Shown here one piece after another: positions 23,435-63,612 of a stretch of 64,000 bases of DNA (position 1 is the stretch's first letter; each line of letters opens with the position of its first letter). The notes below the pieces were generated by a model that was not told the origin of the DNA, made no database searches, and saw only the letters and a list, made by a program, of their open reading frames with translations. The translations under genes were made by a program, and so were the position numbers. The DNA comes from Candidatus Thiodictyon syntrophicum (lineage in GTDB: Bacteria > Pseudomonadota > Gammaproteobacteria > Chromatiales > Chromatiaceae), in NCBI RefSeq assembly GCF_002813775.1, contig NZ_CP020370.1:5543501-5607500 (forward strand). Reading direction: 5' to 3'.

Positions 23435-23836
23435 CCTTTTTCGGCCAGCCGCGACTGGCGTAACCCCGAGCGCCCGCTCGATCTCCTCGCGAAACCGGTC
23501 ATTCCCCGGGGCGTGCCAGTTGGCCTTGATCATAACTTCGGCCACGCGCCCTCACGGCATCCCGGCGCGGCCGGGGGGCCGCTCCTAACGGCGTAGGAGC
23601 GGCCCCCCGGCCGCGACGGATATCACCCTCGAGGTGGCCCGAATAGTGATCAAGCCGTGCCTGTTTGCAGGCAGGCCCCGATTTCTTTCAAAGTCACGGG
23701 ATCGAAGGCGTGCGGGAGGAGTTCTCGGATAGACCCTCAACTAATGCGTGTCCGTCGCCCTAGCGACCGATGCAGGCCATGCGGCAGGGGGCATGAGCCC
23801 TAGTCCGGAATCTTCGACAAGAGAGGAGAATCTACG
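23435..23836. other. Intergenic with one MITE copy
   Basis: Apart from the palindromic element at 23522-23656 no feature is recognised. GAGAGGAG at 23821-23828 is the ribosome site of the GDSL gene. Confidence 0.5.
23522..23656. mobile_element. MITE-like element, GGCCTTGATCAT family
   Basis: 135 bp. It starts GGCCTTGATCATAACTTCGG and ends AGTGATCAAGCC, with an inner hairpin GGGGGCCGCTCCTA/TAGGAGCGGCCCCC. Flanks GTGCCAGTT (23513-23521) and GTGCCTGTT (23657-23665) match in 8 of 9 bases, as expected for an aged target-site duplication. Confidence 0.8.
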
Positions 23837-24551
23837 ATGCGTGTATTGACCAAATTCGTCGGCACCTGGGTTCTGGCGATGTCCGTGGTGACCACGGTGA
23901 ACGCCGCCGCGTTCTCGCAGTTGGTCGTTTTCGGCGACAGCCTGTCCGACGCGGGGAATGCGGCGGCCATAACCACCCCCAGCGGCGGTTAGCCATTCTT
24001 CCCGCCGTCCCCGCCCTATGCCTACCGTTTTTCAAACGGGCCGACGGCTGCCGAATACCTCGCGCAGTCCTACGGCGCTACTGTCAATCTCGGCTGGCCG
24101 ACGGCTACCGCCAACTCCAACAACTTCGCGGTTGGCGGGGCATTGAACGGCAACTACAACGTCCTGGTCGACCAGCCCAGCGGCTTGGGTACGACCTACC
24201 CCGCGGTGGCCGATACGGGGATCACACAGCAGATACCGCGCTATGACGGGACCACGCTGGTTGCGGACCAGACGCTATTCCTGCTGTGGGGCGGGCCGAA
24301 TGACATCTTTCTCGGCCTCGCCACGCGGCCGAACGATATGCTCACCGTCATCAACGATGCACTGGGTGCCATGGCATCCAATATCCAGACGTTGGCGGGG
24401 TTGGACGCAGAGCACATCCTGGTCCCCGGTATGCCCGACCTCGGCAAGACGCCGGAAGCGCTGGCAGCGGGCCCGGTCGTGTCGGAACAGATGTCCCAGA
24501 TCAGTGCATTTTACAACCTCGGCTTGGCCGGGCTGCTGGATATGCTCGATA

Positions 24552-25048
24552 GGCCTTGATCATAACTCCGGCCACGCGCCGTTGCGGCATGGGGGCCGCT
24601 CCTACGCCATAGGAGCGGCCCCCAGGCCGCGACGGATGTCCCCACGAGGTGGCCGGAGTTATGATCGAGGCCCCGCGGTCTGGGGATGTCACGCCCTTTC
24701 AGGGCTGGGCTCCTTTACAACAGGCCACCCAGGGCGTTGCCCTGGGCTGGTATGTCGCGCCCCTTCGGGGCTTGAGGGTCGCGGCGACTGGAGGCGCCCC
24801 CGTGCGGGATCAAAGCGTCCGGGCGGGAGGATTGACCCCAACGGGGTCATATCTACCAGCCCAGGGCAAGGCCCTGGGTTGTCCGCAGAGATGATCTTAG
24901 CCCTGAAAGGGCGTGACAGATCGCGACCTTGATCATCGTTCCGGCCGCCCCGGGCCGGAGTCCAAGGCTTCAGCCTTGGATGTACTAGACCAAGGCTGAA
25001 GCCTTGGACTCCAGAAGATGGCCGCTGGCCGGAACGATGATCGAGGCC
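24552..25048. mobile_element. Composite repeat element inserted in the GDSL gene
   Basis: Two GGCCTTGATCAT-type palindromes (24552-24672 and about 24927-25048) flank a separate long inverted repeat (about 24687-24918). The outer ends are GGCCTTGATCAT and ATGATCGAGGCC. GCTCGATA occurs immediately outside on both sides (24544-24551 and 25049-25056). The 505-bp excision (insert plus one duplication) restores the host frame exactly, so the three modules seem to have moved as one unit. No coding capacity. Confidence 0.9.
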
Positions 25049-25521
25049 GCTCGATAACCTGCTGGCGGACACGCTACTCTATCGCTTCGACACGGCGGCG
25101 TTCTTCAGTCAAGTGACCGCCAATCCGGGGGCCTACGGGTTCACCGACACCACGCATTCCTGCCTCTACAGCGGTGCCTGGTCGCCGACCGACACCACAT
25201 GCACGGGCTATCTCTATTTCGATAACGTGCACCCGACCACCGCCGCGCACCGGCTGCTCGCCGCGCAGTTCGCCGCCGCGGCACCCGCGCCCGAGACCTA
25301 TGCGTTGATACTGCGGGGTTTGGCCGTGATCGGGGGGTCGATGGGTCGAGGTCGGCGCCACTACGGTCAGCCCTGAAGCATAACCGCGCCACCCCAGTCA
25401 CGGCGCGGGCTGGCGGGGGTTAGAGAAAGTTAATGTTCGCACAAGGGGGTAGACACCGCGCGGCGACTCTGGCAGGATTAATGGCAGGGTAATCGGTCTG
25501 CCGTTCCGCCGGGGGGTGGCG

Positions 25522-26421
25522 ATGGGTGCGATGAGTCCAGGACCGTGGGTGCACTGTGGTCGCGTCTTCAGCGTCGAGGAGATCGCCGGTATCCGCCAGA
25601 CGGTGGCGTGGCTGCCGCGGTTGGGGCGGCGCGAGTTGGCGGCGACGCTGTGCGAGCATTTGCAGTGGTATACCGTGACGGGGGCGGCGAAGGTTCACGC
25701 CTGTCGGGAGTTTCTGGAACGTCTGGAGGCGGCCGGGTTGGTGGCGCTGCCCCCGTTGCAGGTCGCGCGGCGTCCCCGCCCGGTCCCCCCGGCGCCGGTG
25801 GTGGCGGCGCCGATGCCGATTCACGGCCCCTTGGCCGCGCTCGGCCCGGTGCGCCTGGCGCCGGTGCGCGCCGACGCCGCGGCGGTGGCGCAATGGAATG
25901 CGGCGGTCGCGCGTTGGCACCCCTTGGGCTACAAGGGTGCCTTCGGCTACCGGCTGCGCTACTTCATCACCGCGGGCGAGCAGCACCTGGGCTGCCTCCT
26001 GCTGGCGGGCGCGGCGCGCGCGCTGGCGGTGCGTGACCACTGGATCGGGTGGGACGCCCAGACGCGCCGGGCCAACCAGGTGCGGGTGCTCAACAACAGC
26101 CGCTTTCTGATCTTTCCCCACGTCCAGGTGCCGCACCTGGCCAGCCATGTGCTGGGACAACTGGCGCGGCGGGTGCGCGCCGATTGGCTCGAACACTGGG
26201 GGTTTGCGCCGCTGTTGCTGGAGACCTTCGTCGACCCGCGCCACTACGCCGGCACCTGTTACCGTGCCGCCGGGTGGGAACTGCTGGGGGAGACCAGCGG
26301 GAGCGGGCTGGCGCGACCGGGCCGGACCTATCACAGCGCCCCGCGCCAAGTCTGGGTCAAGCCCTTGAGTGCACAGTGGCGCGAGCGCTTGTGCGCCGCG
26401 TCCGGGGGGACGACGCCATGA
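25522..26421 (+). CDS. DUF4338 (Druantia DruA-like) protein encoded by the IS
   Basis: 299 residues. L-C-E-H-L-Q-W-Y-T-V-T-G-A-A-K-V-H-A-C-R near residue 40, H-P-L-G-Y-K-G-A-F-G-Y-R-L-R-Y-F near 135, N-N-S-R-F-L-I-F-P near 192 and L-L-E-T-F-V-D-P-R-H-Y-A-G-T-C-Y-R-A-A-G-W near 233 are the DUF4338 landmarks. DUF4338 is the domain of DruA, the marker protein of Druantia anti-phage systems. No druBCDE genes are present; the gene lies inside the IS and overlaps the transposase by ATGA. An element function is more likely than immunity. GTG 25516 is an alternative start. Confidence 0.8.
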   Translation: MGAMSPGPWVHCGRVFSVEEIAGIRQTVAWLPRLGRRELAATLCEHLQWYTVTGAAKVHACREFLERLEAAGLVALPPLQVARRPRPVPPAPVVAAPMPIHGPLAALGPVRLAPVRADAAAVAQWNAAVARWHPLGYKGAFGYRLRYFITAGEQHLGCLLLAGAARALAVRDHWIGWDAQTRRANQVRVLNNSRFLIFPHVQVPHLASHVLGQLARRVRADWLEHWGFAPLLLETFVDPRHYAGTCYRAAGWELLGETSGSGLARPGRTYHSAPRQVWVKPLSAQWRERLCAASGGTTP

Positions 26422-27938
26422 GCAAACCCTGCCGCCGCCTGTCACGCGCGGCCATCAAGGAGCAACGCGCGCACAAGAAACAGCAGGAACAGGCGCTACG
26501 CCAACAGCAGCGCCAGGACGGACTGATCCCCCGCGTACCCGCGCCGTTACCCAATCGCTGCTCGGCGTACGCCACGCTCGCCGAGGAACAGCAGGCCCGC
26601 GAGGCGGCGGTCAGCGGCCAGGTGCGCGTCCTGCGCCGGGAACTGCCCGCGTTGCTCGCCGCCCTGGGACAGATTCCCGAGCCCCGCAACCCCAAGAAGT
26701 GTCGGCATCGGCTCACCGTGCTGCTGCTCTACGGGCTGCTGATGTTCGTCTTTCAGTTCGCCTCCCGGCGCGCGGTCAACCGCGAACTGACGCACCCCCA
26801 GTTCGAGGCCAACCTACGGCTCCTGTTCCCCGAACTGGAGACCCTCCCGCACGCCGACACCCTGTTTCGGCTGCTGCGCGACATCGACGTGACCCACCTC
26901 GAACAGGCGCACATCGACCTGGTACGCCGCCTGATCCGCGCCAAGACCTTCCGCCGCTACCTGATCAACCACGCCTATCCCATCGCCATCGACGGCTCCC
27001 AGAAATTCACCCGTGACCACCTCTGGGATGAGAATCTCCTGGAACGTCAGGTCGGGGCCGAGGACGCGCGCCACACCCAGTACTTCGTCTACGTCCTGGA
27101 GGCCAGTCTGGCCTTTCACAACGGGCTGGTGATCCCCTTGCTGAGCGAATTCCTCGAATATGCCAAGGGCGATACCAAGGCCGACAAACAAGACTGCGAA
27201 CGGCGCGCCTTCACGCGGCTCAGCGCCCGGATCAAGACGCTGTTCCCGCGCCTGCCGATCTTGCTGTTGCTCGACGGTCTCTATGCCGACGGACCGGTGA
27301 TGCAGTGCTGCCATCAGTACCACTGGCAGTTCATGATCGTTTTCAAGGACAAGGACTTGCCTACGGTCTGGGAGGAATTCCACGCGCTGCACGCGGTGCA
27401 GCCAGCGGGTTGTCAGCGCGACTGGGGGGAGCGCCACCAGCGCTTTTCCTGGGTCAACGCGATCGACTATGCCTTCTCAAACAACACGCGCCGCCACCTC
27501 AGTCTGCATGTGGTGGTCTGTGAGGAGACCTGGGAGACGATCGATGAACAAGGCGCGCGCCTGACCAAGACCGCGCGCCATGCCTGGCTCTCCAGCCAAC
27601 CACTCAGCCGCGCTAATGCGCATGAGCGCTGCAACCTAGGGGCCCGTTACCGCTGGGGCATCGAGGCCGGCTTCCTGGTGGAGAAACATCAGGGTTACCA
27701 CTACGAGCACGCCTTTGCCCTGAACTGGAACGCCATGAAGGGCTATCACTACCTGATGCGCCTGGCGCACCTGTTCAACACCCTGGCACGCTTTGCCCGC
27801 CATCTGCGCGAGCTTTATCGCACCCTGGGCGTGCGTGGCGCCATCGCCTTCATCCGCGCGTCCTGTGCCGGCCCCTGGCTCGACCCCGCGCGGATGCGCC
27901 GCCTGCTCGCCCAGCCGCTGCAGCTTCAGCTCGAATAA
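26418..27938 (+). CDS. DDE transposase of the DUF4338-carrying IS
   Basis: 506 residues with a basic N-terminus and an RNase-H-type catalytic core: P-I-A-I-D-G-S-Q-K-F near residue 195 (first Asp), L-L-L-L-D-G-L-Y-A-D near 287 (second Asp) and a C-terminal Glu-containing helix, Y-R-W-G-I-E-A-G-F-L-V-E-K near 414. It is translationally coupled to the DUF4338 gene. It appears full length, so the IS may be active. Confidence 0.85.
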   Translation: MSKPCRRLSRAAIKEQRAHKKQQEQALRQQQRQDGLIPRVPAPLPNRCSAYATLAEEQQAREAAVSGQVRVLRRELPALLAALGQIPEPRNPKKCRHRLTVLLLYGLLMFVFQFASRRAVNRELTHPQFEANLRLLFPELETLPHADTLFRLLRDIDVTHLEQAHIDLVRRLIRAKTFRRYLINHAYPIAIDGSQKFTRDHLWDENLLERQVGAEDARHTQYFVYVLEASLAFHNGLVIPLLSEFLEYAKGDTKADKQDCERRAFTRLSARIKTLFPRLPILLLLDGLYADGPVMQCCHQYHWQFMIVFKDKDLPTVWEEFHALHAVQPAGCQRDWGERHQRFSWVNAIDYAFSNNTRRHLSLHVVVCEETWETIDEQGARLTKTARHAWLSSQPLSRANAHERCNLGARYRWGIEAGFLVEKHQGYHYEHAFALNWNAMKGYHYLMRLAHLFNTLARFARHLRELYRTLGVRGAIAFIRASCAGPWLDPARMRRLLAQPLQLQLE

Positions 27939-28261
27939 CCGCCGCCGGGAACGGCGCCCGACCCCGGCACGCCGGCGACCACCGGTGCTGGCAACCGCTG
28001 GCCTGGCGAGCGTGACGCATGCCCGAGTACCGGTCCGACAACCCTCCCGGCACCTGCCAAACCTTCTGCCGCAACCCCCGGTCAGGGCCAACGCACCCCG
28101 CAGCGGCCAACGCCAGCGCCCAACGGCGCCGACGCCGCCCAATGTCAGCCGGCGGCAGGGTTATGCTTCAGGGCTGCACTACGGTCAATGTGGGCAGTAG
28201 CCTTAGGCGCTTTGTGCGATAATTACAGGCTGAGCTTTCCGACCCAAGGTCCGAGACCAGC

Positions 28262-29479
28262 ATGGAGTTACCCACGACTGCCGGGCCCAGGACCAAGGTC
28301 CTGGCCCTGTCCTCGCTCTACCCGAGCACGGCGCTCCCCCAAAACGGCATCTTCATCGAGCACCGGCTTCGCCACCTGCTGGCATCGGGGCTGGTAGACC
28401 TGCGGGTCGTCAGTCCCGTGCCCTGGTTTCCGCTGGCCGGCGCCCGCTTCGGCCGCTATGCCGCGTTCGCCCAGGTCCCGGCGCGCGAGGAGCGCTTCGG
28501 CATTCCGGTCACTTACCCGCGCTTTCCCACCATCCCGAAGGTCGGGATGACGCTCGCCCCCGCCCTGATGGCGGCGGCGCTCTATCCAAAGCTGCGCCGG
28601 CTGCTCGCGAGCGGTGACTTCGCCTTCGAGGTCATCGACTCCTACTACATCTACCCGGACGGCGTGGCCGCCGTCTGGCTGGGCCGGATGCTCAAGCGGC
28701 CGGTCATCATCAGCGCCCTGGGGACCGACATCAATCTGATCCCGCGCTATCGGCTGGCGCGGCGGATGATCCAGTGGGCGGCGCACCATGCCGCCGGGAT
28801 CACCACGGTGTGTCAGGCGCTCAAGGATGGGATGGTGGACCTGGGCGTCGATGCGGCGCGCATCCGTGTCGTTCTGCATGGCGTCGATCTGGAACTCTTC
28901 CGCCCGCCCGCGGACCGGGAGGCACTGCGCGGACGTCTGGGTCTGACCCGCCCCACCCTGCTGTCGGTCGGTCACCTGATCGAACGCAAGGGTCACAACT
29001 TCGCCATCGAGGCCCTGGCCGAGCTTCCCGACATGGATCTCGTGATCGCCGGCTACGGACCGGAAGAGGGCGCACTGCGCCGCTTGGCGAGCCGCCTTGG
29101 GGTCGCGGACCGGGTGCGTTTTCTGGGCTTCGTCGATCAGGCGGCGCTGCGTGATTGGTATGGCGCTGCCGATTGCCTGGTCCTGGCCTCCAGCCGGGAG
29201 GGGATTGCCAATGTCATTCTGGAAGCGCTCGCCTGCGGCACGCCGGTGGCGGCAACCCGGGTCTGGGGTGCGCCGGAGGTGATCGACAATCCCGCCGCCG
29301 GGGTCCTGATCGAGGAGCGCTCGGGGCGGGGCGTGGCGGCCGGCGTCAGGGCCTTGCGCGGCGTGGCGCAAGACCGAGACGCCACCCGCCGCCAGGCGGA
29401 GCGCTTTCGCTGGGAGCAAACCACGCACGACCATCTCGCGGTGCTTGCAGACGCACTGTCGTCCGGCGCCATACCTTGA
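28262..29479 (+). CDS. Glycosyltransferase family 4
   Basis: 405 residues, GT-B fold. The N-terminal V-L-A-L-S-S-L-Y-P-S-T-A-L-P-Q-N-G-I-F-I-E-H-R-L-R is typical of GT4 enzymes from exosortase-linked polysaccharide loci. The C-terminal donor-binding half shows L-S-V-G-H-L-I-E-R-K-G and the E-x7-E motif in R-E-G-I-A-N-V-I-L-E-A-L-A-C-G-T-P-V. It probably adds a sugar to an extracellular polysaccharide or glycolipid precursor at the inner membrane face. It is convergent with a second GT4 gene. Confidence 0.85.
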   Translation: MELPTTAGPRTKVLALSSLYPSTALPQNGIFIEHRLRHLLASGLVDLRVVSPVPWFPLAGARFGRYAAFAQVPAREERFGIPVTYPRFPTIPKVGMTLAPALMAAALYPKLRRLLASGDFAFEVIDSYYIYPDGVAAVWLGRMLKRPVIISALGTDINLIPRYRLARRMIQWAAHHAAGITTVCQALKDGMVDLGVDAARIRVVLHGVDLELFRPPADREALRGRLGLTRPTLLSVGHLIERKGHNFAIEALAELPDMDLVIAGYGPEEGALRRLASRLGVADRVRFLGFVDQAALRDWYGAADCLVLASSREGIANVILEALACGTPVAATRVWGAPEVIDNPAAGVLIEERSGRGVAAGVRALRGVAQDRDATRRQAERFRWEQTTHDHLAVLADALSSGAIP

Positions 29480-29497
29480 TCCATCGCTCAAGAAAGA

Positions 29498-29706
29498 AAT
29501 TCTCTCACGGAGACACGGAGACACAAAGAAAGAGATTATTAAAAACAGTCATCTGCGTCGGTTAGGATATGCAATGCAGCGACCCGTCCGCGGTCGATTC
29601 TGTGTCTGACAATCACCCGGCGTTGATCTCAGCTTGCTGGTTGGACATCTGAAGCGCTGTTATCCAGTCCTTATTCTCCGTGTCTTTGTGTCTCCGTGAG
29701 AGAATT
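29498..29706. repeat. Inverted repeat pair between convergent glycosyltransferase genes
   Basis: TCTCACGGAGACACGGAGAC (arm 29498-29532) and its inverse (arm 29672-29706), about 35 bp each, enclose 139 bp without a gene. This sequence type is common between genes of various proteobacteria and could form a long hairpin or a bidirectional terminator. Confidence 0.7.
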
Positions 29707-29716
29707 TGGTCTGAAT

Positions 29717-30892
29717 TCAGGCGAGCGCGTCATACACACGCGTATAGCCGCCGATCATCGCGGCCTGGCTGAAGACCGCGACCGCCCGGTCGCGGCCGGC
29801 GCGCCCATGCGCGGCCAGTCGCGTCGGATCGGTCAGGTTGCCGTGCAGCGACCGCGCCAGTGCCGCGGGGTCCGCGGCCGGGACCAGGTCACCGGTAACC
29901 CCCTCCAGCACCAGTTCGGGATTGCCGCCGACCCGGGTCGCCACCACCGGCAGCCCGCTCGCCATCGCCTCCAGCAGGGTGTTGGAGATCCCCTCACGCC
30001 GGGACGGGAGCACGAAGAGGTCCATACAGCGATAGAGATCGGGGATATCGTCGCGAAAGCCCGGCAGCCAGGCGTGGTCCTGGAACCCGGCCGCGGCCAG
30101 CACCGCCTGCATCGGCGCGCGCAGGGCCCCGTCACCGACGACGAGCAGACGTACACGCCGACTCAGTTCGGGGTGGGCTTGCAGCAGTCCGACCAGGGCC
30201 TGGGCGAGGGTGACCTGGTCCTTGACCGGCTCCAGACGCCCGATGGTGCCGATCACCAGTGCGTCATCCGGAGCGAAACCGCTCGGGAGCAGGTGCCGCG
30301 GCCGCGCCCCCGGGGCGAAACGCTCGATATCCACGCCATTGTAGACAACCGACAGGTCCCGGGGCGGAATCCCGACCTCGGCGTTAAGCCACTGCTTGAG
30401 GTCGGCCGACATCGTGATGTAGTGCCCGACCAGCAGGCGGCTCAAGCGCCGCAGGCGGTTGTAGCGTTGGTGGCGCCCCTCGAGCTCCACGGCGTCCAGG
30501 CCATGCTCGCTGTGGACCAGTCGGCGCACCCCGGCGAGCCGGGCCGGCACCAGCATGTCGATGGCGGGCAGGTTGCGCGTATGTACGAGCCAGGGGCGCA
30601 ACTGCCGCAGGGCGCGGTAGACCCGGGCATAGGCGGCCGGGTCCTTGCCCGTCTGCTTGCCGATCTCGATGATCGGGACCGCGGGCCGACGGATGCGCTC
30701 CTTGAAATCGGTCGCGTGGCTCAGACACAGGATGGCGTGCCGATAGCGCTCGGTCGGCATCCAGTTGATCAGGTTGACCACACCGTTCTCCAGGCCGCCG
30801 TAGTCGAGCTTGAAGATGATGTGACAAATCAATCGGCGGTGGTCTGGTTCGCGGGGTTCGCGGGGGTCGCGGGAAACTGGGGTCATGGTCAC
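29717..30892 (-). CDS. PEP-CTERM/exosortase-associated sugar transferase (TIGR03088-like)
   Basis: 391 residues, GT-B family 4. The opening R-L-I-C-H-I-I-F-K-L-D-Y-G-G-L-E-N-G-V-V-N-L and H-T-R-N-L-P-A-I-D resemble the TIGR03088 group linked to exosortase A loci. The donor-binding region includes G-T-I-G-R-L-E-P-V-K-D, L-V-V-G-D-G and the E-x7-E stretch R-E-G-I-S-N-T-L-L-E-A-M-A-S-G-L-P-V. The role is EPS biosynthesis. Together with three PEP-CTERM proteins nearby it indicates an exosortase-type surface system, although the sortase itself is outside the window. Confidence 0.85.
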   Translation of the reverse strand: MTMTPVSRDPREPREPDHRRLICHIIFKLDYGGLENGVVNLINWMPTERYRHAILCLSHATDFKERIRRPAVPIIEIGKQTGKDPAAYARVYRALRQLRPWLVHTRNLPAIDMLVPARLAGVRRLVHSEHGLDAVELEGRHQRYNRLRRLSRLLVGHYITMSADLKQWLNAEVGIPPRDLSVVYNGVDIERFAPGARPRHLLPSGFAPDDALVIGTIGRLEPVKDQVTLAQALVGLLQAHPELSRRVRLLVVGDGALRAPMQAVLAAAGFQDHAWLPGFRDDIPDLYRCMDLFVLPSRREGISNTLLEAMASGLPVVATRVGGNPELVLEGVTGDLVPAADPAALARSLHGNLTDPTRLAAHGRAGRDRAVAVFSQAAMIGGYTRVYDALA

Positions 30893-31540
30893 TCATCCAA
30901 AAAAATCCACAGATGAACACAGATGAACACAGATTGAATTGTCATGCGCTTATCGCTAGTGTCACAAGCACCGGCAAGGTGGGTCGCCAGCTAATCGTAA
31001 ATCAATGAATAATCTGTGTTCATCTGTGTGCAACTGTGGATAACTGCTCTTTCCAGGTTCATCTGACAGGCCTCGCGATGCGCACGCGCGGGGGTGCGTG
31101 GGGCCGCGGTTCAGGAGGGGGCCTTGGTCATCCGTGCGGCATCGGTCCGCGCAGCGGACCCTACGGGCTCGCAGCAGGTCCGCGGGGCGGACCGACCGCC
31201 GGGCGCACGCCGCGAGCGCAGTGGTCAGGGCGAGGGAGGGAAGCGCCAGGATAACCCGTACCACGCCCGCCGCGGCGAGTCTTGGGAGCACGCCAACACC
31301 GGCCACGGCGCACCAATTAGGCCCCGACCTGGCACTGAATGCGCGATCTTGGGGCAGCTTGCCGGACCAAGACCACCGCCGCTGGCGCGGCAGACGAGCC
31401 GATTCGGCGATCCACTCAAGCAATCGGGCCTGACCGCCCACCTTGGCCCAGGCCCGCAGACAGCGCCGGGGCTACCACAGTCACTGGCACGCAACGTGCT
31501 TACTCAAGGGATACACCCCGAGCCACAAGGCAGTCGCACC
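30893..31540. repeat. Repeat-bearing intergenic region
   Basis: Two inverted arms, CACAGATGAACACAGATGAA (about 30905-30938) and its inverse (about 31012-31041), are followed by a GGTCCGCGCAGCGGACC palindrome segment (about 31120-31180). A frame open upstream of 31541 reads through this region but is compositionally repeat DNA. No gene accepted. Confidence 0.6.
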
Positions 31541-34903: not shown

Positions 34904-34982
34904 GGCCCTGACCAAGGGGTCACTGGTGGTCAATTCATCGCAGGGCGGCGGGAGTAAGGATACCTGGGTCCTCGCGGATTGA

Positions 34983-50466: not shown

Positions 50467-50664
50467 GGGCAGGGCGTTGCCCCCATCCAAGCCGATCGCT
50501 GGTGCGCCACGTCCCGACCTCGCAATCGACCGTTACGCTGACCAGTGTAGGCGATCACCGCCGGACCTGCAATCCAGGCGGGAGGCTCACGCCGGGTTGC
50601 GCCCCTGGGGCACTGCGTTTAGCCTTCCCCGGCCGCATCCCGTCGGCCGGAGGACCGCAACAAC

Positions 50665-51855: not shown

Positions 51856-51902
51856 GCGCGCCCAGAGGCCCGCACCGTGCCCGCCGCGCATCCCGATCGT
51901 CG

Positions 51903-53426: not shown

Positions 53427-53512
53427 GCCGCCGCCGGCCGGTAAGGGCCGCGCCGCGCGCGACCGCTCCAGTTGCATCATCAGGCGCCATAACCAACGAG
53501 AGGACCCCAGTC

Positions 53513-53797: not shown

Positions 53798-53827
53798 GCA
53801 GGCACCGGGTGCGCCGCCCGGCGGCCC

Positions 53828-55345: not shown

Positions 55346-55347
55346 GA

Positions 55348-56553
55348 TCAGAACCCGAACCAGGGCAGTGCCAGGAACCCCTGGATCACCAGGGCGTTGG
55401 TAATGTCGATCAGGAAGGCGCCGATGATCGGCACCAGCAGGAAGGCGAGCGGCGAGGGGCCGTAGCGGTTGGTGATCGCCTGCATATTGGCGATCGCCGT
55501 GGGGGTGGCACCGAGTTGGAAGCCGCACTGACCGGCGGCGATGACCGCCGCGTCATAGTCGGCGCCCAGCACCCGAAAGGTCAGGGTGACCGCCAGGACC
55601 ACCACCAGCAGGGCCTGCAGGCTCAGGAGCACGAGGATCGGCAGGGCCAGACTCACCAGCTCCCACAGGCGCAGCGACATCAGGGCCATGGCCAGGAAGA
55701 GCGACAGACAGACGGTGCCGAGCAGTTCCACCGTGGGCCCGTCCACCTGGTAGAACCCCCGCCACCCCAGGGTGTTGCGCAGCACGATGCCGGTCAGCAG
55801 GCACCACACGAAGGTCGGCAGCTTAAGGCCCGGGATCTGCACGGTCTCCGCCAACAGGGTGCCGACCCCCAGGCACAGCATCAGCAGCAGCACCGTCTCC
55901 ATCAGCGACTCAGGGCTCAGGGGCCGCCGCTCATCGGTGCGCAGCGAGCCGGGCCCCTGGTCCGCGGCCGCATCCGCGCGGGGTTCGAGCCCATGCCGCC
56001 GGATCAGCCACTGGGCCGTGGGCCCGCCCAGGATGCCGCCCAGCACCAGCCCGAAGGTGGCACAGGCCATGGCCACCTCCACCGCCCCCTGCAGGTTGTT
56101 GACCTCCCCGAACAGCTTGCCATAGGCCGCCCCGGTGCCGTGACCGCCGGTCAGGGTCGCCGAGCCCCCCAGGAGGCCCATCAACGGGTGCAGGTCGAGC
56201 ACCTTGGCGATAGCGATGCCCAGGGCATTCTGCAGCAAGAGGGCCAGGATCACGACGGCGAACAGGATGACCAGCTTGCGCCCGCCCCGGGCCAGGGTGC
56301 GCAACTCCGCGCTGAGCCCGATGGTGGAGAAGAACACCAGCAGCAGCGGCGCCTGGGCGCGGGTATCGAACTGCACCTGAAAGTCCCCAAACCGCGCCAG
56401 CGTCAAGAGCAGCGCCGCCGCCAGCCCGCCCACCACCGGCTCCGGGATGCTGTAGCGTTGCAGCACCGGCACCCGCGCGATCAGGGCCCGCCCCGCGAGC
56501 AGGACCAGGATGGCGGCGACCGCCGTCAATGCGAGCGAGACCTCGACCTGCAT
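55348..56553 (-). CDS. gltS: GltS-type sodium/glutamate symporter
   Basis: 401 residues with ten or so membrane segments. The family signatures are Y-S-I-P-E-P-V-V-G-G-L near 36, G-G-S-A-T-L-T-G-G-H-G-T-G-A-A near 130 and the second re-entrant loop A-A-G-Q-C-G-F-Q-L-G-A-T-P-T-A-I-A near 340. It imports glutamate with Na+. It is the first gene of a two-gene operon with the TAXI lipoprotein. ATG 56553 gives the standard start. Confidence 0.9.
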   Translation of the reverse strand: MQVEVSLALTAVAAILVLLAGRALIARVPVLQRYSIPEPVVGGLAAALLLTLARFGDFQVQFDTRAQAPLLLVFFSTIGLSAELRTLARGGRKLVILFAVVILALLLQNALGIAIAKVLDLHPLMGLLGGSATLTGGHGTGAAYGKLFGEVNNLQGAVEVAMACATFGLVLGGILGGPTAQWLIRRHGLEPRADAAADQGPGSLRTDERRPLSPESLMETVLLLMLCLGVGTLLAETVQIPGLKLPTFVWCLLTGIVLRNTLGWRGFYQVDGPTVELLGTVCLSLFLAMALMSLRLWELVSLALPILVLLSLQALLVVVLAVTLTFRVLGADYDAAVIAAGQCGFQLGATPTAIANMQAITNRYGPSPLAFLLVPIIGAFLIDITNALVIQGFLALPWFGF

Positions 56554-56888
56554 GGGGTAGCGTCCAGTGGGATGAGTCGGAAAGGCGGTCGCGGGTCCGG
56601 GCCTGAGGTGGGCGAGGCGACCGTTCGTCGGCGGGGGTAAGGTTAAGCGAAAACGCCGCGCGATGCAGCAGCGTACTGGGAGCGCCGCACCCCAGTGCGG
56701 CGAGACCTCTCTGCGGCACGGGACGCCGCGTTCGTCTGAGCCGGCTGGGCGCCCTGCCCGCGAATGCCCCGGCCAGCCGCCCCGCGTTGCGACCGCCCCG
56801 CTGCGCGCGGGCCTGGTGTCGTCCCCGCGACCGGGCGCCCGGCCCCCACTCCGGGCTATACTCACGGCGGCTCCACCGGAGGATCACC
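56554..56888. other. Divergent intergenic with one GGGAGCGCCGCACCCCAGTG repeat
   Basis: A single arm of the GGGAGCGCCGC repeat lies at about 56679-56705 (paired copies at 17472-17564). GGAGG at 56878-56882 is the ribosome site of the Uma2 gene. Confidence 0.5.
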
Positions 56889-57470
56889 GTGTCACTCAAG
56901 ACCAGACCCAGCTACCAATTCGAGGACTATCTCGCAACCGAGCGGGCGCAGACGCAGGTCAAGCACGAATATGTGGACGGCGAGGTGTTCGCCATGACGG
57001 GCGCCTCATTCAATCACAATCTGATCGTGCTCAACCTGGGCAGCGAATTGCGGGCGGAGCTCAAGGATCGACCCTGCCACGTCCTCCCGAGCGACATGCG
57101 CGTGCGTATCCAAGCGGCGAACGCCGGCACCTATCCGGACCTGGTGGCCCTGTGCGAAGCACCCCGCTTCCATGACCAGCGGCGCGATGTGCTCATCAAC
57201 CCGGCCCTGCTCGTCGAAGTCCTCTCCCGCTCCACGGAGGCCTATGACCGCGGCGGGAAGTTCGCGATCTACCGCCGGCTGCCGAGCCTCAAGGAGTATG
57301 TGCTGGTGAACCGCGACCGCCCCCTGGTGGAGGTCTATGCCCGCCAATCCGACGGTCGTTGGCTGCTCGACGCGATGGAAGGGATGGATGGCGAGGTCCG
57401 CTTCGAGTCCATCGCGTGCGCGGTGGCCATGCGGGAGATTTACGACAAGGTGGATTTCGAGGCGGAGTAG
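56889..57470 (+). CDS. Uma2-family (DUF820) endonuclease-like protein
   Basis: 193 residues. Y-L-A-T-E-R-A, K-H-E-Y-V-D-G-E-V-F-A-M-T-G-A-S, then Y-P-D-L-V-A-L-C near 93 and L-L-V-E-V-L-S-R-S-T near 116, the PD-(D/E)XK-like core of the Uma2 family. These abundant proteins are predicted nucleases of unknown function. Starts with GTG 56889 behind a good GGAGG. A truncated GGCCTTGGTCAT repeat begins 8 bases after its stop. Confidence 0.85.
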   Translation: MSLKTRPSYQFEDYLATERAQTQVKHEYVDGEVFAMTGASFNHNLIVLNLGSELRAELKDRPCHVLPSDMRVRIQAANAGTYPDLVALCEAPRFHDQRRDVLINPALLVEVLSRSTEAYDRGGKFAIYRRLPSLKEYVLVNRDRPLVEVYARQSDGRWLLDAMEGMDGEVRFESIACAVAMREIYDKVDFEAE

Positions 57471-57477
57471 CGTTTTC

Positions 57478-57578
57478 GGCCTTGGTCATGGTTCCGGCCG
57501 TAGGGTGGACAAGCGCTATCGCAGTCCACCGAACCCCGCGCCGCCGCTGGTGGACTGCGCTGCGCTTGTCCACCCTAC
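57478..57578. mobile_element. Half of a GGCCTTGATCAT-type element
   Basis: GGCCTTGGTCATGGTTCCGG (57478) is followed by the full GTAGGGTGGACAAGCG palindrome (57500-57578). The right outer arm is missing, and the element is joined directly to the 3' end of the Schlafen/ParA remnant. Confidence 0.65.
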
Positions 57579-57895
57579 TTGACGGTCGCGCCCGGCCTTT
57601 CCAACGCCCAGGTCTCCACCAGTTGGGGCTCGCCCAGCAAGATGGCAGAGAGGGTGCATTGGGGATCGTAATCGAGCACGAGGACGCGGAGTCCGGCCCG
57701 CGCCCACACCGAGTCCAATTGATCGGGCAGGGTACCGGTCACGGTCTTGCGGGTCGCCACCGGCGTATCGGGGTCCGCGCCCTTATAGCGGACGAACTCG
57801 ATCTTGGCCCCCGGGAGCCAGGATTGGGGGCTTGCGCCATACAAGAGCTGCGCCGCCGGGTTGGGCCGCCAGGCCCCGGCGACCGTGCGGCCCAA
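57578..57895 (-). pseudogene. Chimeric remnant: Schlafen AlbA_2-like piece joined to a ParA piece
   Basis: The first part, N-P-A-A-Q-L-L-Y-G-A-S-P-Q-S-W-L-P-G-A-K-I-E-F-V-R-Y-K-G, then T-V-T-G-T-L-P-D-Q-L-D, is typical of the middle of AlbA_2/Schlafen-type ATP-binding regulators. It is fused to G-L-R-V-L-V-L-D-Y-D-P-Q-C-T-L-S, the D-x-D-P-Q block of ParA ATPases, without that protein's Walker A. Neither part is complete. The frame is open, but a functional product is unlikely. Confidence 0.55.
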
Positions 57896-57952
57896 TTGGC
57901 GCTAGAATCCCCACTACCCCGGCACCGCCGGGGCAACCCCGGAGGACTCGCC

Positions 57953-60900
57953 ATGGCCTTCAGCAGCGTGCTGCACATCCGCCAAGCCGATCGCATCGAT
58001 GGACACTACCCCATCCGCCTGCGCCTGCGCTGCCCGGACCAACCGGACCTGGAGGCCGAGGCGCGCATCACCTTCGCGCTGACGCCCCAGGAGCAGGAAG
58101 ACCTGCGCTGGTACCTGGAGGACTATCTCCAGAACCCGGGGGCGGTGGAGCCGGTCCAGATCGCGCAGATCGAGTCCATGCTGCACAGCCGCGGGGAGGA
58201 CCTGTACCGGCAGGTCCTCACGGCCAATCCGGACACCCAGGCGATCTGGTTCGCCATCCGTAACCAACTCGCGGATCTGCGAATCGAGATCGCCTCCGGC
58301 ATCAGCGGGGCCGCGGCCATCCCCTGGGAGCTGATGCGCGACCCGGCCTTGGACTGCGCCATCGCGCTGCGGGTGCGCGCCTTCGTGCGGGTCCAGTCCA
58401 ACCCGAGCCTGTCGTTCATCCCCATCCCCCCGCTGGACGACGGGCGCATCCGGCTCCTCTATTGCTGCTGTCGGCCCAACGGGACCGACGACGTGGGCTT
58501 GCGCGCGGTCGCCAACCGGCTGCTCCAGGGCCTGGGCGAGCACCGCCCGCGCTTCGCCATCCGCGCCCTGCGCCCGCCCACCTATGAGCAACTCCAGAAG
58601 GAGCTGACCGACGCCAAGGAGGCCGGCCGGCCCTTCCATATCGTCCACTTCGACGGCCACGGCATCTACGCCGACCTGGGCGGCACCGCGCTCGCCGGCT
58701 GGGTCGCCCAGCTCGGGAGCCTCATGCTCGGCGGCAAGACCAAGGGCCCGCAGGGCTATCTGATCTTCGAGCACCCCGGGAGCAAGGAGCGGGTCCGCCC
58801 GGTCCCGGGTGCGGCGCTCGGCCAACTGCTGCACGACAGCGGCGTCCCGGTCCTGGTGCTCAACGCCTGCCAGTCCGCCATGCACGAGGCGCTCGAGCGG
58901 CCCGCCGCGGCCACCGACGCCCACGCGGAGGTCCGGGCCATCGGCTCGCTCGCCCAGGCGGTGGTGGACCAGGGCATCCCGGCCGTGCTCGGGATGCGCT
59001 ACAGCGTCTATGTCGTCACCGCCGCCCAGTACATCGGCGCACTCTATGCCGCGCTGGCCAAGGGCCGCGGCCTGGGCCAGGCCGCGAGCGAGGCGCGCAA
59101 GGACTTGAGCCGCAACCCGGAGCGCTGGGTGGGGCTCCGGCCCCGGCCCCTGCAGGACTGGTGCGTCCCGGTGATCTACGAGGCCATCGACCGCCCGCTG
59201 CTCGCGCCCGGGCAGACCGCGACGCTCAGCCCCGGACCGGACCTGGACCCGGTCCAGAACGACCCGGCCCTGCGCCGCTATTGCCCGGACCAGGGGTTCG
59301 TCGGCCGCGACGAGACGCTCCTGATGCTCGACCGCGCCTTCGACACCGCCCCCGTGGTCCTGCTCCACGCCTATGCCGGCCAGGGCAAGACCGCGACCGC
59401 GGTCGAATTCGCCCGCTGGTACGCCCAGACCGGGGGGCTCGGCGACCAACCGGTGGTCCTGCTGACGTCGTTTGAGGTCCACACCGACCTGACCGACGCG
59501 CTCAACCGTATCGGCCAGCGCTTCGCCCCCATTCTCCAGGCCAACGGCATCGAGTGGCACAGCATCAACGACGAGACCCGGCGCCGCACGCTCATCCTGC
59601 AACTGCTGCGGCTGGTCCCGGTCCTCTGGATCTGGGACAACCTGGAGCCGGTCGCCGGCTTCCCGGCCGGCGCCGAGTCCGCCTGGACCCCGGCCGAGCA
59701 GACGGAGCTGGCCGATTTTCTGAAACAGATCAAGCTCGACGGCCAGACCAAGGCCAAGCTGCTGCTGACCTCCAGGCGCGACGAACAGGCATGGCTCGGC
59801 GGCCTCCCGCGGCGCGTCCGGATGCCGCCCATGTCCGCAGCCGACGCCGCGCTGCTCGCGCTCGAACTGGGCCGGGAGCGCGGGCTGGAGCGCACCGGGA
59901 TCGGCGACTGGCAGCCGCTGCTCGACTACTGCGCCGGCAACCCGCTGACGCTGCGGGTGCTCATCGGCCAGGCGGTCGGGCTGGGGCTCAGCGGTGCCGG
60001 TCAGATCGCCGCCTTCGTGCAGGCGATCCGCGACGGCGCCCGGCCGATCGCCGATGGCCCGGACGGGGGCGACGCGGACGCGGAGCAGGGGCGCGACCGG
60101 TCGCTGCGCGCCTCGCTGGACTATGGGTTCGCCCATGCCTTCGCACCGGCGGAGTTGCCGATCGTCGCGCTGCTGCACCTGTTTCAGGGGGTGGTGGATG
60201 TCCGTGCCCTGGCCTTGATGGGCCAAGGCGACCATGCGCTGCCGGCGTTGCAGGGCCAGGACCAGGACCGGCTCACCACGCTGCTGCGGCGCGCCGCGGA
60301 CATCGGGCTCCTGACCCCGCTCGGGGGGACCCTGATCGGAATTGGGTTCGGCATCCACCCGGCGCTGCCCTGGTTCCTGGGCCAGGTCTTTGCGCGCTGC
60401 TATGACGGCGCCGAGGGACGCCCGGCGGCTGGGTCGGCCAGGCGCGCCTGGGTCGAAGCGGTCGGGGCCTTGGGCGATTACTACTGCGGCCAGGTCGTCG
60501 CAGGTCACCAGGAGGCGATCCAACCGCTCGCGCTGGAGGAGTCCAACCTGCTGCACGCCCGCCGGCTGGCCCGACGGCAGGGCTGGTGGTCGCCGGTCAT
60601 CTCCGCCATGCAGGGGTTGCGGGTGCTCTATGAGTACCAGGGGCGCCGGACCGAGTGGTCCAGGCTGGTGGCCGAGTGCGTGTCGGACTATTGCACGGCG
60701 GACGATGGACCCGTCCCCGGGCGGGAGGACGGGTACACCCTGGTCATGGGCTATCGGGTCGATCTGGCCCGGCAACTGGACCACGACCTCGCCCGCGCCG
60801 CCGACTTGCAGGCGAAGCTGGTCGACTGGGACCGGCAAGCGGCGGCCGAGGCCCTGGGGCTGCCGGGGGATGCGCCGCTGGATGCCGATCGGCGCCACCG

Positions 60901-61660
60901 CGTCCGGACCCTGGGGGCATCCCTGGCGGCGCTGGGCACGATCCTGCGCGAGCAGGGCAGCGGCGACTGCATCGCCCGCTATCTGGAGGCCATCGGGCAC
61001 GCTCAGCGCATCGGCGATACCGCCGGCGAGGCGATTACCCACTTCAACCTCGGCCACGCCTACAAGGACATCCCAGCCATCCGCGACCTGGACTCGGCCG
61101 AGTCCGCCTACCGGCGCAGCCTCGACCTGTTCGATCCCAACGACGCACTGAACCGCTCCAAGTGCCTGCAAGCAATCGGCATGGTGCATCACCAACGCTT
61201 CGACGCCGCGCGCGCACGGGGCGAGCCCGAGTCGGCGCTGCTCGACCAGGCGCAGTCGGCGGAGACCCATTTGCAGCAAGCCTTGGCGCTCTGCCCGGCC
61301 GGCGCCATCGCCGACCTGGGGCCGATGCACAACCAGTTGGGCGCTCTCTACGACGCGGTCGGCCAGACCGAGCGCGCCCGCGAGCACTACGAGCAGGCCG
61401 TGCAGTTGGCCGAACGGGTCGGCGACCGCTACAGCGCTGGAACGAGACGCTTCAACCTCGCGGTCCTATATCTCGGCTCGGCCGAACGCGAGGCCGCCCT
61501 GCCCCGCCGCCGCGACCTGCTGCACCGCGCCCAGGCCTACGCCCACTCCGCACTGCGCGACTTCGGCCACTACCAGGGCCGCGCCGCCGATCCGGAGGCC
61601 CGGGCGCAGCAACTCATCGACTCGATCGCCCAGTCGCTGGCCGAGCCGCCGCCCCCGTAG
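57953..61660 (+). CDS. CHAT-STAND NTPase-TPR protein (NLR-like immune protein)
   Basis: 1235 residues. The N-terminal CHAT caspase-like domain has His in H-F-D-G-H-G near 238 and Cys in V-L-N-A-C-Q-S-A near 304. The central STAND/NB-ARC-type NTPase has Walker A A-Y-A-G-Q-G-K-T-A near 474 and a Walker B-like L-W-I-W-D-N-L-E near 560, with R-D-E-Q-A and helical relay regions after it. The C-terminal third (about 950-1220) consists of TPR-like helices. This effector-switch-sensor order is that of bacterial NLR-related defence proteins. GGAGGA at 57941 fixes ATG 57953. Confidence 0.88.
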   Translation: MAFSSVLHIRQADRIDGHYPIRLRLRCPDQPDLEAEARITFALTPQEQEDLRWYLEDYLQNPGAVEPVQIAQIESMLHSRGEDLYRQVLTANPDTQAIWFAIRNQLADLRIEIASGISGAAAIPWELMRDPALDCAIALRVRAFVRVQSNPSLSFIPIPPLDDGRIRLLYCCCRPNGTDDVGLRAVANRLLQGLGEHRPRFAIRALRPPTYEQLQKELTDAKEAGRPFHIVHFDGHGIYADLGGTALAGWVAQLGSLMLGGKTKGPQGYLIFEHPGSKERVRPVPGAALGQLLHDSGVPVLVLNACQSAMHEALERPAAATDAHAEVRAIGSLAQAVVDQGIPAVLGMRYSVYVVTAAQYIGALYAALAKGRGLGQAASEARKDLSRNPERWVGLRPRPLQDWCVPVIYEAIDRPLLAPGQTATLSPGPDLDPVQNDPALRRYCPDQGFVGRDETLLMLDRAFDTAPVVLLHAYAGQGKTATAVEFARWYAQTGGLGDQPVVLLTSFEVHTDLTDALNRIGQRFAPILQANGIEWHSINDETRRRTLILQLLRLVPVLWIWDNLEPVAGFPAGAESAWTPAEQTELADFLKQIKLDGQTKAKLLLTSRRDEQAWLGGLPRRVRMPPMSAADAALLALELGRERGLERTGIGDWQPLLDYCAGNPLTLRVLIGQAVGLGLSGAGQIAAFVQAIRDGARPIADGPDGGDADAEQGRDRSLRASLDYGFAHAFAPAELPIVALLHLFQGVVDVRALALMGQGDHALPALQGQDQDRLTTLLRRAADIGLLTPLGGTLIGIGFGIHPALPWFLGQVFARCYDGAEGRPAAGSARRAWVEAVGALGDYYCGQVVAGHQEAIQPLALEESNLLHARRLARRQGWWSPVISAMQGLRVLYEYQGRRTEWSRLVAECVSDYCTADDGPVPGREDGYTLVMGYRVDLARQLDHDLARAADLQAKLVDWDRQAAAEALGLPGDAPLDADRRHRVRTLGASLAALGTILREQGSGDCIARYLEAIGHAQRIGDTAGEAITHFNLGHAYKDIPAIRDLDSAESAYRRSLDLFDPNDALNRSKCLQAIGMVHHQRFDAARARGEPESALLDQAQSAETHLQQALALCPAGAIADLGPMHNQLGALYDAVGQTERAREHYEQAVQLAERVGDRYSAGTRRFNLAVLYLGSAEREAALPRRRDLLHRAQAYAHSALRDFGHYQGRAADPEARAQQLIDSIAQSLAEPPPP

Positions 61661-62321
61661 GGTGCGCCGCGCGCACCACCCGCCGCCCGCGAGCCCCGTC
61701 GAGCGGGTCAGGCGCGCCCCCTGCGCCCGGCCCGTCAGGCCCCGTCGGTGGCGGCACGCCCTAGCCCGACGCGGCGGCGCCGACCGTGGGAGCGGCCTCC
61801 AGCCGCGGTCAGACGCCGCCGCAACCCGCCCCGCCGCGTTGCCCGCGGCGCCCGGTGGGAGCGGCTTCAGCCGCGACCCAAGGCTGCGGTAACCCGCGAC
61901 GCTCGGGCAACGCGCGAGGTCTCGTCGCGGCTGAAGCCGCTCCCACCGCGTCGCTGCGCGACGTTCACTGCAAAGCCGCTCCCACCGGGTCGGCGCCGGA
62001 CCTTGACGGTCACCGCCAGGCCGCTGGTCCGCTGATCCTGGTCCTGGTCCGCACAGCGGACCCTACGCGCCCGGCGGATCAGCACCGTAGCGCCGTAGGT
62101 CGGGTTAGGCGCGCCCCCCTTCGCCCTACCCGGCACGCTCCGTCGGTTGCGGCGCGCCGTAACCCGACGGTGAGGCGCCGACCGTCGGGTTACGCTGCGC
62201 CCCCGTCCCGCCTGGGCGCGACCATTGCGTCTGCCGCCCCTGCGGCCCATGCTCAGCCGATCCGTCCCGGACAGTTGGAGCCTAACCAGGCCCAAAGACG
62301 TAGAGACTGAGGTGATGAAGA
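61661..62321. repeat. Repeat-filled intergenic region
   Basis: Contains GTGGGAGCGGCCTCCAGCCG at 61786, an inverted pair of GTGGGAGCGGCTTCAGCCGC (61855-61946), a GGTCCGCACAGCGGACC palindrome (about 62047-62063) and two inverted GTCGGGTTA/TAACCCGAC arms (about 62099-62192). No gene. Confidence 0.75.
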
Positions 62322-62777
62322 ATGACCGGATCGCCGAGTTACGACCGTGACTTTTTCGGCTGGCTGAATACGAATGCACAATTGATGCGGAACCGTCAGT
62401 TCGACCAGATCGATGTCGAGCATATTGCCGAGGAACTGGAAGGGATGGCGCGGAGCGAAAAGCGGGAATTATTGAATCGCCTCGCGGTACTGCTGGTGCA
62501 CTTGCTCAAGTGGCAGTACCAGGCGCCCAAGAGGACCGGTAGTCGGCGCAATACCATTGTGATGCAGCGCATGGATATCGCGGACCTCATCGAAGATAGC
62601 CCGAGCCTGAAGCCGCTGGTGGCGGAGAAAATGCAAGCGGCTTATGAAAAGGCCAAGCTCAAAGCGGAGGATGAGACCGGAATCGACCGACGGAGTTTTC
62701 CGAGCCAGTGTCCCTACACGCTTGAGCAGTCGTTGTCGCCGGAGTTTTTCCCCGGCGATCACAGCGATCTCGCCTAG
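62322..62777 (+). CDS. DUF29 family protein
   Basis: 151 residues: Y-D-R-D-F-F-G-W-L-N-T-N-A-Q-L-M-R-N, D-V-E-H-I-A-E-E-L-E-G-M-A-R-S-E-K-R-E-L, L-L-V-H-L-L-K-W-Q-Y-Q, and C-P-Y-T-L-E-Q-S-L. This is the standard DUF29 layout. The family is widespread in multicopy form in cyanobacteria and purple bacteria; function unknown. Confidence 0.88.
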   Translation: MTGSPSYDRDFFGWLNTNAQLMRNRQFDQIDVEHIAEELEGMARSEKRELLNRLAVLLVHLLKWQYQAPKRTGSRRNTIVMQRMDIADLIEDSPSLKPLVAEKMQAAYEKAKLKAEDETGIDRRSFPSQCPYTLEQSLSPEFFPGDHSDLA

Positions 62778-62792
62778 CCATTTGACTCCCGC

Positions 62793-62904
62793 GCCGGACG
62801 GGGCATTCGCCCCGTCCGCAACCTTTTCTCCGAGCCCGCGGACCCGCGGCACGAATCAGCGAGAGAATAAACGTTCGGGACGGGGCGAATGCCCCGTCCC
62901 GCCC
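62793..62904. repeat. Inverted pair of GACGGGG-type REP palindromes
   Basis: GGACGGGGCATTCGCCCCG near 62796 and GGGACGGGGCGAATGCCCCG near 62879, each followed or preceded by an AACNTTT tail. Same family as 3481-3587 and 35173-35202. Confidence 0.8.
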
Positions 62905-62936
62905 GTAAGTCGCGCGCGCATTCGGCGACCGGCGGG

Positions 62937-63035
62937 TTACGCCGCCCGGCGCGCCAATGGCAAACGCAGGTCGACTTCATCCCATGGCACCCACACCCGG
63001 CCATCTGCGCCGCACTCCACGACCGTCCACTCCAT
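62937..63035 (-). CDS. Very short frame coupled to the DUF433 gene
   Basis: ATG shares its A with the DUF433 stop (TGATG) and encodes 32 residues, M-E-W-T-V-V-E-C-G-A-D-G-R-V-W-V-P-W. It may be a truncated partner of the DUF433 antitoxin or noise; no family recognised. Confidence 0.25.
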   Translation of the reverse strand: MEWTVVECGADGRVWVPWDEVDLRLPLARRAA

Positions 63036-63265
63036 CAGGGCGGCCACCGGTCATGAGCGACGACCGCATGGGCATAGGCGAGGCAGGCCGTGATGTCGTC
63101 CGCCTCCAGACCGGGATAGTCGGCCAGGATGGCGTCGGTGGCCTCACCTTGCGCCAACAGCGACAGCACCATTTCCACTGAGATCCGCAGGTCGCGGATG
63201 ATTGGTTTGCCGCCGAATACGTCGGGGCGCGCTGTGATTCGGTGCAACAGGTCGTCTCGGTTCAT
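63035..63265 (-). CDS. DUF433-family antitoxin
   Basis: 76 residues: I-T-A-R-P-D-V-F-G-G-K-P-I-I-R-D-L-R-I-S-V-E-M-V-L-S-L-L-A-Q-G, the N-terminal DUF433 motif (G-K-P-x-I-x-x-x-R-I), followed by I-L-A-D-Y-P-G-L-E-A-D-D-I. The normal neighbour, a DUF5615 toxin, is absent; only a 32-codon frame and then REP repeats follow. Confidence 0.85.
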   Translation of the reverse strand: MNRDDLLHRITARPDVFGGKPIIRDLRISVEMVLSLLAQGEATDAILADYPGLEADDITACLAYAHAVVAHDRWPP

Positions 63266-63464
63266 GGGCCGCTCCGGTCAAGTCGGTGAGTCTGCTGGTC
63301 GGATTATGCACCTGGGGCCGGGGACGCGGGGAATCTGCGCATGATGTGGGTCTCGACTTGCCCCTCCTGCGACCTGAGAGCACGGGGAACTTCCATGTTC
63401 CGGGGTGACGGACGGCGCCCCTGATCGGGTCAGCACCTGGGGCGCCTTCGCCGCGCGGTTCGGC

Positions 63465-63598
63465 GGCCTTGATCATAGCTCCGGCCACAGGCCTTTCGGC
63501 AACTCGTCGCGGCCTGGGGGCCGCTCCTACGGCGTAGCAGCGGCCGCCAGGCCGCGACGGAAGTCACCCTCGAGGTGGCCGGAATAATGATCGAGGCC
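63465..63598. mobile_element. MITE-like element, GGCCTTGATCAT family
   Basis: 134 bp. GGCCTTGATCATAGCTCCGG at the left and ATAATGATCGAGGCC at the right, with an inner hairpin GGGGGCCGCTCCTACGGCGT. Flanks GGTTCGGC (63457-63464) and GATTCGGC (63599-63606) agree in 7 of 8 bases. It inserted just downstream of hcp. Confidence 0.8.
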
Positions 63599-63612
63599 GA
63601 TTCGGCGACCCC

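Follow-up and report, generated by a model that had tools for sequence, protein, structure and literature searches.

Miniature transposons of Thiodictyon syntrophicum share their ends with insertion sequences encoding a DUF6399 protein

The genome of "Thiodictyon syntrophicum" Cad16T (7.74 Mb in three contigs of 6,837,296, 484,824 and 416,864 bp) carries short repeats bounded by terminal inverted repeats of about 24-27 bp, GGCCTTGATCATNNNTCCGGCCAC, whose outer ends read GGCC. We describe them here starting from a 64,000-nucleotide stretch of its contig C1 (C1:5543501-5607500; hereafter the window, with positions counted from its first letter), for which a preliminary description had proposed four copies of a family resembling miniature inverted-repeat transposable elements (MITEs), with 8-9 bp target duplications. 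These short repeats are genuine miniature transposons. We consider it very likely that they are non-autonomous, MITE-type elements whose GGCCTTGATCATNNNTCCGGCCAC ends serve as recognition sites for the transposase of a 1.9-kb insertion sequence (IS) family in this genome, and that this transposase is most likely the DUF6399 protein.

Copies in the window and their target duplications

All four proposed copies are present in the window with terminal inverted repeats between direct repeats, as defined by their ends, flank comparison and the clustering or repeat comparison of their interiors. The first is a MITE of 133 bp (11165..11297) with the GTAGGGTGGACAAGCGC palindrome as its interior; its left 9-bp duplication GATGTCGCG (11156..11164) recurs on the right as GGTGTCGCG (11298..11306) with 8/9 positions matching, so that the element holds up as a MITE with a duplication while its right boundary moves from 11298 to 11297. 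The second, of 136 bp (23522..23657), has a GGCCGCTCCTA..TAGGAGCGGCC palindrome as its interior and lies between TGCCAGTT (23514..23521) and TGCCTGTT (23658..23665), which match at 7/8 positions, or at 8/9 if the element is ended at 23656 as first drawn. Its location is a GGGGCGTGCC..GGCACGCC hairpin that follows a gene which, by its appearance, we take to be RAYT-like. A palindrome of the same kind, GGCCGCTCCTA..TAGGAGCGGCC, forms the interior of a 134-bp MITE at 63465..63598, flanked by GGTTCGGC (63457..63464) and GATTCGGC (63599..63606; 7/8). End-motif and repeat matches further reveal a partial copy at 57478..57578 with one degenerate end and the GTAGGGTGGACAAGCGC palindrome.

The remaining copy, 24552-25048, does lie between exact direct repeats (GCTCGATA at 24544..24551 and again at 25049..25056, 8/8) but is a compound rather than the single MITE it was taken for: MITE-a (121 bp, 24552..24672) and MITE-b (124 bp, 24925..25048, with a GTCCAAGGCTTCAGCCTTGGA palindrome as its interior) enclose an unrelated repeat of 252 bp (24673..24924). 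The congener G006 lacks exactly these 497 bp; across the joined flanks 90/112 positions are identical without a gap, and the contig carrying this empty site is syntenic, with 98% identity over 986 bases further left. The GDSL-type gene at 23837-24551 was said to regain a perfect reading frame once the insertion is removed. A frame does cross the joined site, but an in-frame stop stands at codon 52, well before the compound, so that the gene's status as a pseudogene, original or acquired, does not depend on the insertion.

The 252-bp core recurs at about 39 or more other separate genomic places, mostly as partial matches. It stands without good ends at two loci (L227, L228), with MITE-b only at a third (L226), and with both MITEs on pTs485 (L225) and pTs417 (L224). 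Because the repeat is seen in these three states, a stepwise origin suggests itself, whereby the MITEs would have landed beside the repeat before the outer ends moved the whole. MITE-a of pTs485 has a duplication of its own (CCGCGGGC/CCGCGGTC, 7/8; L092); at the outer ends an exact duplication is found only in the window copy among the core-repeat loci, the pTs417 copy having none.

The end motif occurs 23 times in the window with at most 3 mismatches, against 5.58 expected, a count reached by 0/100 shuffles. Genome-wide, the 24-base end is found within 3 mismatches at 251 places (134 + 117), and its reversed control at 0. From the stretches around roughly the first hundred of these places, together with the window and the IS and DUF6399 loci, we defined copies as inverted end pairs 55-450 bp apart, which gave 68 distinct elements; this sample comes from the best-matching places and is no random census. 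An 8-bp duplication (at least 7/8 matching) flanks 28 of the 68 and a 9-bp duplication (at least 8/9) another 9, so that 37/68 have one or the other with at most one mismatch. When left flanks are paired with the right flanks of other copies, the corresponding rates are 0.18% and 0.04%, real pairs thus matching far more often than mismatched ones. For 28/68 against 0.18%, the binomial P is about 1e-58, with copies treated as independent. At 5, 6, 7, 10, 11 and 12 bp, one mismatch being allowed, the counts are 2, 0, 1, 0, 0 and 0 of 68. A link between end sequence and duplication length (8 or 9 bp), sought among the MITEs, was not convincing.

Clean empty sites were obtained at two of the five insertions tried, namely the window compound and an IS-containing unit described below; the other three, all in the window, proved uninformative or only paralogous. 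At 23522 the syntenic G006 contig lacks 193 bp, more than the MITE, and thus provides no clean empty site, the MITE itself being missing only at a paralogous G006 site. The left flank of 63465 is not conserved in relatives, which precludes a readout, and among the matches listed for eight genomes none crosses the 11165 site. As duplications of 8 or 9 bp far above chance are joined by clean empty sites, the repeats have moved by transposition, as the preliminary description had held against simple scatter of repetitive extragenic palindromic (REP) sequences.

What was proposed as one MITE family has one set of ends but no uniform body. Clustering groups the 68 interiors into sets of 25, 19, 7, 6 and 4 plus seven singles, the clusters being built on at least five unrelated palindromes, with the cluster of 6 joining two of them. 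In this DNA, which was chosen for its ends, palindrome cores A-E are without ends nearby at 1/29, 7/38, 4/16, 2/6 and 8/22 places, while a REP-like control motif has no end nearby in 12/15. One element of 124 bp (L112, 2248-2371) encloses some 70 bp of other DNA between IS-B ends (27/27 and 26/27; IS-B is introduced below) and has an exact 9-bp duplication; it looks like a freshly made shell. Palindrome-targeted insertion was considered as a source of the palindromic interiors and rejected: the mean folding energy of 47 joined target sites is -20.2 against -19.6 in 3,000 random 60-mers (P = 0.36), with 3/47 below the 5% quantile.

Partner insertion sequences and the joint use of IS and MITE ends

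In keeping with the earlier remark that no transposase in the window has matching ends, 0/17 genome-wide protein matches of the partner IS fall within it, and no IS-A or IS-B copy is found there. An IS with matching termini and an 8-9 bp duplication does exist elsewhere in the same genome. Ends of the form GGCCTTGATCATAAATCCGGCCA often lack a nearby partner, and four of six such places that were fetched are copies, 99.8-100% identical, of a 1,916-bp element with MITE-type ends. This element, IS-A, has 11 full copies in the genome and one more in two pieces; its 1,917-bp sibling IS-B, with 67% protein identity to it, has three copies and a fragment. Exact 8-bp duplications abut the ends of 9/11 IS-A copies, a tenth shows one at an extended boundary and the eleventh matches at 6/8; exact 9-bp duplications, read off the flanks, accompany 2/3 IS-B copies. 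The 8 bp of IS-A and the 9 bp of IS-B would explain why both lengths occur among the MITEs. The MITEs resemble either IS at the ends alone (among 105 and 81 matches, the longest spans 43 bp), and the end of the query MITE (..AACTCCGGCCAC; 14 exact places among the matches listed) differs from those of both IS-A and IS-B.

The other two fetched places hold a MITE beside an element that we take to be of the IS66 type. In both (L034, 1589-1720; L035, 3163-3294) the MITE has a 9-bp duplication and adjoins the putative IS66-type transposase gene; it lies inside two 2-kb copies that are 99.9% identical, and may have been amplified with that element.

The most telling event involves two loci. At L033, a 178-bp MITE is interrupted by IS-A, which has an exact duplication GCCGACCG, the MITE itself being flanked by TGGGTGCG/GGGGTGCG (7/8). 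At L036 the same IS-A continues into the last 42 bp of the L033 MITE, as far as its right end, with 0 differences from L033 over 1,958 bp; the 42-bp tail, found in six fetched loci, comes from only these two genomic places. The exact 8-bp duplication CTCGCCAC at L036 abuts the left end of the IS and the right end of the MITE, not the right end of the IS, and the homologous locus of the congener G004 (L213) has a single CTCGCCAC and lacks the 1,958-bp unit. Among the six loci fetched for this site, L213 is clean; L210-L212 likewise have no such unit, at 70-72% identity and with gaps close to the junction, and L214 and L215 are uninformative. Since the duplication abuts both ends and the G004 site is empty, an IS left end and a MITE right end were used together in one transposition. 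Nature has in effect performed an experiment here: a transposase can be seen to have used an end belonging to a different element, which points, if indirectly, to mobilisation of the MITEs in trans by the transposase of their parent. How ends are recognised, and how MITEs capture unrelated DNA, can be tested directly on this basis.

The DUF6399 protein and its relatives

The largest reading frame of IS-A specifies a protein of 558 amino acids with a GTG start. Its C-terminal part matches PF19936 (DUF6399), described as a "family of unknown function", with an E-value of 5.8e-59 and 198.8 bits against a cut-off of 35.4; a weak match to a helix-turn-helix (HTH) domain lies at the N-terminus. As the full-length IS carries the same ends as the MITEs together with this gene, the DUF6399 protein is most likely the enzyme that moves the MITEs, IS-A and IS-B. 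No NCBIfam transposase model comes near its cut-off: there are weak matches to IS481 (E 0.0012), IS3 (0.0026) and IS630 (0.0029), and in the member shown in full these sit in the N-terminal HTH. The Pfam rve domain gives one weak match (E 0.079) in a single DUF6399 member. D147, D201, D221 and E474, along with E148, E169 and D510, are invariant in nine proteins down to 23% identity. D147, either D201 or D221, and E474 would fit the acidic DDE triad, the glutamate following a long insertion. Transposases of the IS256/Mutator type have such a long insertion ahead of their catalytic glutamate. We infer both the catalytic role of DUF6399 and DDE chemistry from the sequences of the proteins and their elements.

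Four plasmid records with relatives label them twice as "DUF6399 domain-containing protein", once as "hypothetical protein" and once not at all. In the literature collection searched, no paper mentions "DUF6399", and the end motif had a study of birds as its sole match. The main text of the paper on Cad16T contains no word beginning with "transpos", and PMC13116554, which deals with phototrophic sulfur bacteria from that lake, yielded no passage when searched for transposition terms.

With a strict end motif, we surveyed 55 genomes, the genome under study and 54 relatives. The ends occur in 16 and DUF6399 in 11, all 11 being among the 16. Each of the eight genomes belonging to this genus holds 128-374 ends, and G009 holds 70. 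Ends are absent from 39 of the 44 genomes without DUF6399, number 1-4 in four others and reach 209 in G006. In the congener G003 (3.0 Mb in 670 contigs), most of the matches listed are of an IS-B-like end, GGCCTTGATCATAATTCCGCCC, perhaps reflecting a separate burst. A phylum sample of 398 genomes, the present one included, contains DUF6399 matches in 11, above the cut-off in 8. Named relatives come from Lamprocystis, Thiodictyon, Accumulibacter, Thiohalocapsa, Planctomycetota and Chlamydiae, and from Oligoflexia by 30 residues only; others are on cyanobacterial and Methylomonas plasmids.

At foreign loci too, GGCCTTGATC ends flank DUF6399 genes. Of 66 loci examined, 10 distinct ones have an end pair matching at 19/26 or better and both flanks readable, the rest being cut short or having at most one end. 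Target duplications are present at 5/10: 8/8 in Lamprocystis purpurea (L145/L056), 9/9 and 8/8 at L076 and L082 of G002, 7/8 in Thiohalocapsa halophila (L148) and 8/8 in a planctomycete whose protein is 44% identical (L152). G002, the source of L056, L076 and L082 alike, is probably the genome of that Lamprocystis. An Accumulibacter locus (L147) has similar ends and no duplication.

Two further features of the window are recorded here. The segment from 25368 to 26500 and beyond, beside the GDSL remnant, is 100% identical to five other chromosomal places and looks like another recent mobile element; we take its frames to encode a protein of the DruA/DUF4338 type and, after it, an IS4-like transposase. 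At 13835-15142, a 126-bp tandem unit, its length a multiple of three, appears in nine overlapping copies in the repeat comparison.

Alternative explanations and known systems

We propose that the transposase would pair any left-type end with any right-type end in inverted orientation at a suitable distance and move the DNA between them, the target being cut with a stagger of 8 bp by IS-A and 9 bp by IS-B. Because only the ends would matter, the family could spread with unrelated palindromic interiors, and compounds such as an IS with part of a MITE, or a MITE-repeat-MITE, could be moved as well.

Several observations weigh against this reading. A clear duplication is absent from 31/68 paired copies, some of which are halves of compounds, and the one at window 45543 probably pairs by chance; a full duplication is likewise missing from one copy each of IS-A and IS-B. 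The G004 locus used as the empty site of L036 shares 79% identity with its left flank, has a gap of 12 bases some 40 bp away from the insertion point, and could be a paralogue. Profile comparison of the DUF6399 protein with the PDB gave only weak matches, the best (E 0.016) to an HTH. Three DUF6399 genomes have just 1, 3 and 2 ends, and the 209 ends of G006, a draft in 910 contigs, are there without a DUF6399 match. Half of the readable foreign loci (L144/L057, L067, L075, L081 and L153) show no clear duplication, even though L144 is 97% identical to L145, which has one, and L153 has ends matching 26/26. Finally, the loci of the cyanobacterial DUF6399 proteins (23% identity) and of the chlamydial fragment have no such ends.

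Some of these points would suit the idea that the MITEs belong to another transposase, unseen or extinct, whose ends the DUF6399 IS merely shares or imitates: besides the situation in G006, the query MITE end (..AACTCCGGCCAC) is identical to no IS-A or IS-B end. We hold this to be improbable, given that IS-A moved together with a MITE right end at L033/L036, a homologous site standing empty in a congener, that IS and MITEs share both duplication lengths, and that the largest frame of the IS encodes DUF6399. It is less probable still that the interior palindrome is the mobile unit, REP-like and spread by a Y1 or RAYT enzyme or passively copied, with the GGCCTTGATCAT arms only framing it. The interiors are indeed palindromic, some palindromes also occur without ends, and the putative RAYT-like gene adjoins one copy; yet the duplications abut the ends and not the palindrome, the same ends enclose at least five unrelated interiors and a whole IS, and both clean empty sites have their breakpoints precisely at the ends. 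Recombination or gene conversion scattering the repeats without transposition, which would suit the copies lacking clear duplications, is the least credible account; the copies with exact duplications already contradict it, as the 8-bp signal far exceeds its control and the empty sites carry a single copy of the target. Mobilisation by the DUF6399 IS family hence remains the reading that we strongly favour.

On a broader scale, we think it reasonably probable that DUF6399 proteins act as transposases for a hitherto undescribed IS family present in several phyla, with GGCCTTGATC ends and 8-9 bp duplications, which would recognise purely the ends and mobilise unrelated palindromic repeats, fragments of other DNA and entire adjacent repeats as cargo, in "shells" with exchangeable interiors that reach hundreds of ends per genome in this genus. 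This would give a Pfam family of unknown function a testable one and account for hundreds of repeats per genome.

REP/RAYT elements are single-strand hairpins that a Y1 transposase moves, leaving no target duplication; as the present copies carry duplications of 8 or 9 bp, they do not belong with them. Among IS families, IS256, ISL3, IS66, IS6, IS1595 and ISLre2 make 8-9 bp duplications. The elements described here resemble these in duplication length, and a DDE-type logic is plausible for them. None of the Pfam transposase models of these six families is among the 25 families listed for nine DUF6399 members, nor in the full tables of five members, and an hhalign comparison of DUF6399 with one transposase of this genome, which we take to be of the IS66 type, gave a probability of 0.4%.

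The IS1202 family, recently raised to that rank from an uncharacterised ISNCY group (PMC10132070), is alike in its large transposase, inverted repeats of about 25 bp and previously uncharacterised status, but its Acinetobacter members have TGT outer ends and 5-bp duplications where those here have GGCC and 8-9 bp. Closer in host, the related purple sulfur bacterium Thiohalocapsa PB-PSB1 has MITE-like repeats whose ends match an IS elsewhere in its genome (PMC10907252); the likeness is one of description, the passages concerned stating no end sequence, duplication or DUF6399. The elements of Cad16T combine ends common to an autonomous IS, target duplications and empty sites in relatives, as expected of MITEs. 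Known IS-derived bacterial MITEs (for example MITEAba12, Correia elements and Nezha; PMC10969869) are likewise short and non-coding, with IS-type inverted repeats, duplications and a parent IS in the genome. Unlike these, the elements described here have for a parent a DUF6399 IS, whose protein is not named as a transposase, and share only its ends, their interiors being several unrelated palindromes. The pairing of MITE and IS is of a known kind; as far as searches of Pfam, NCBIfam and the literature reach, the transposase family and its end-only shells are new to description.

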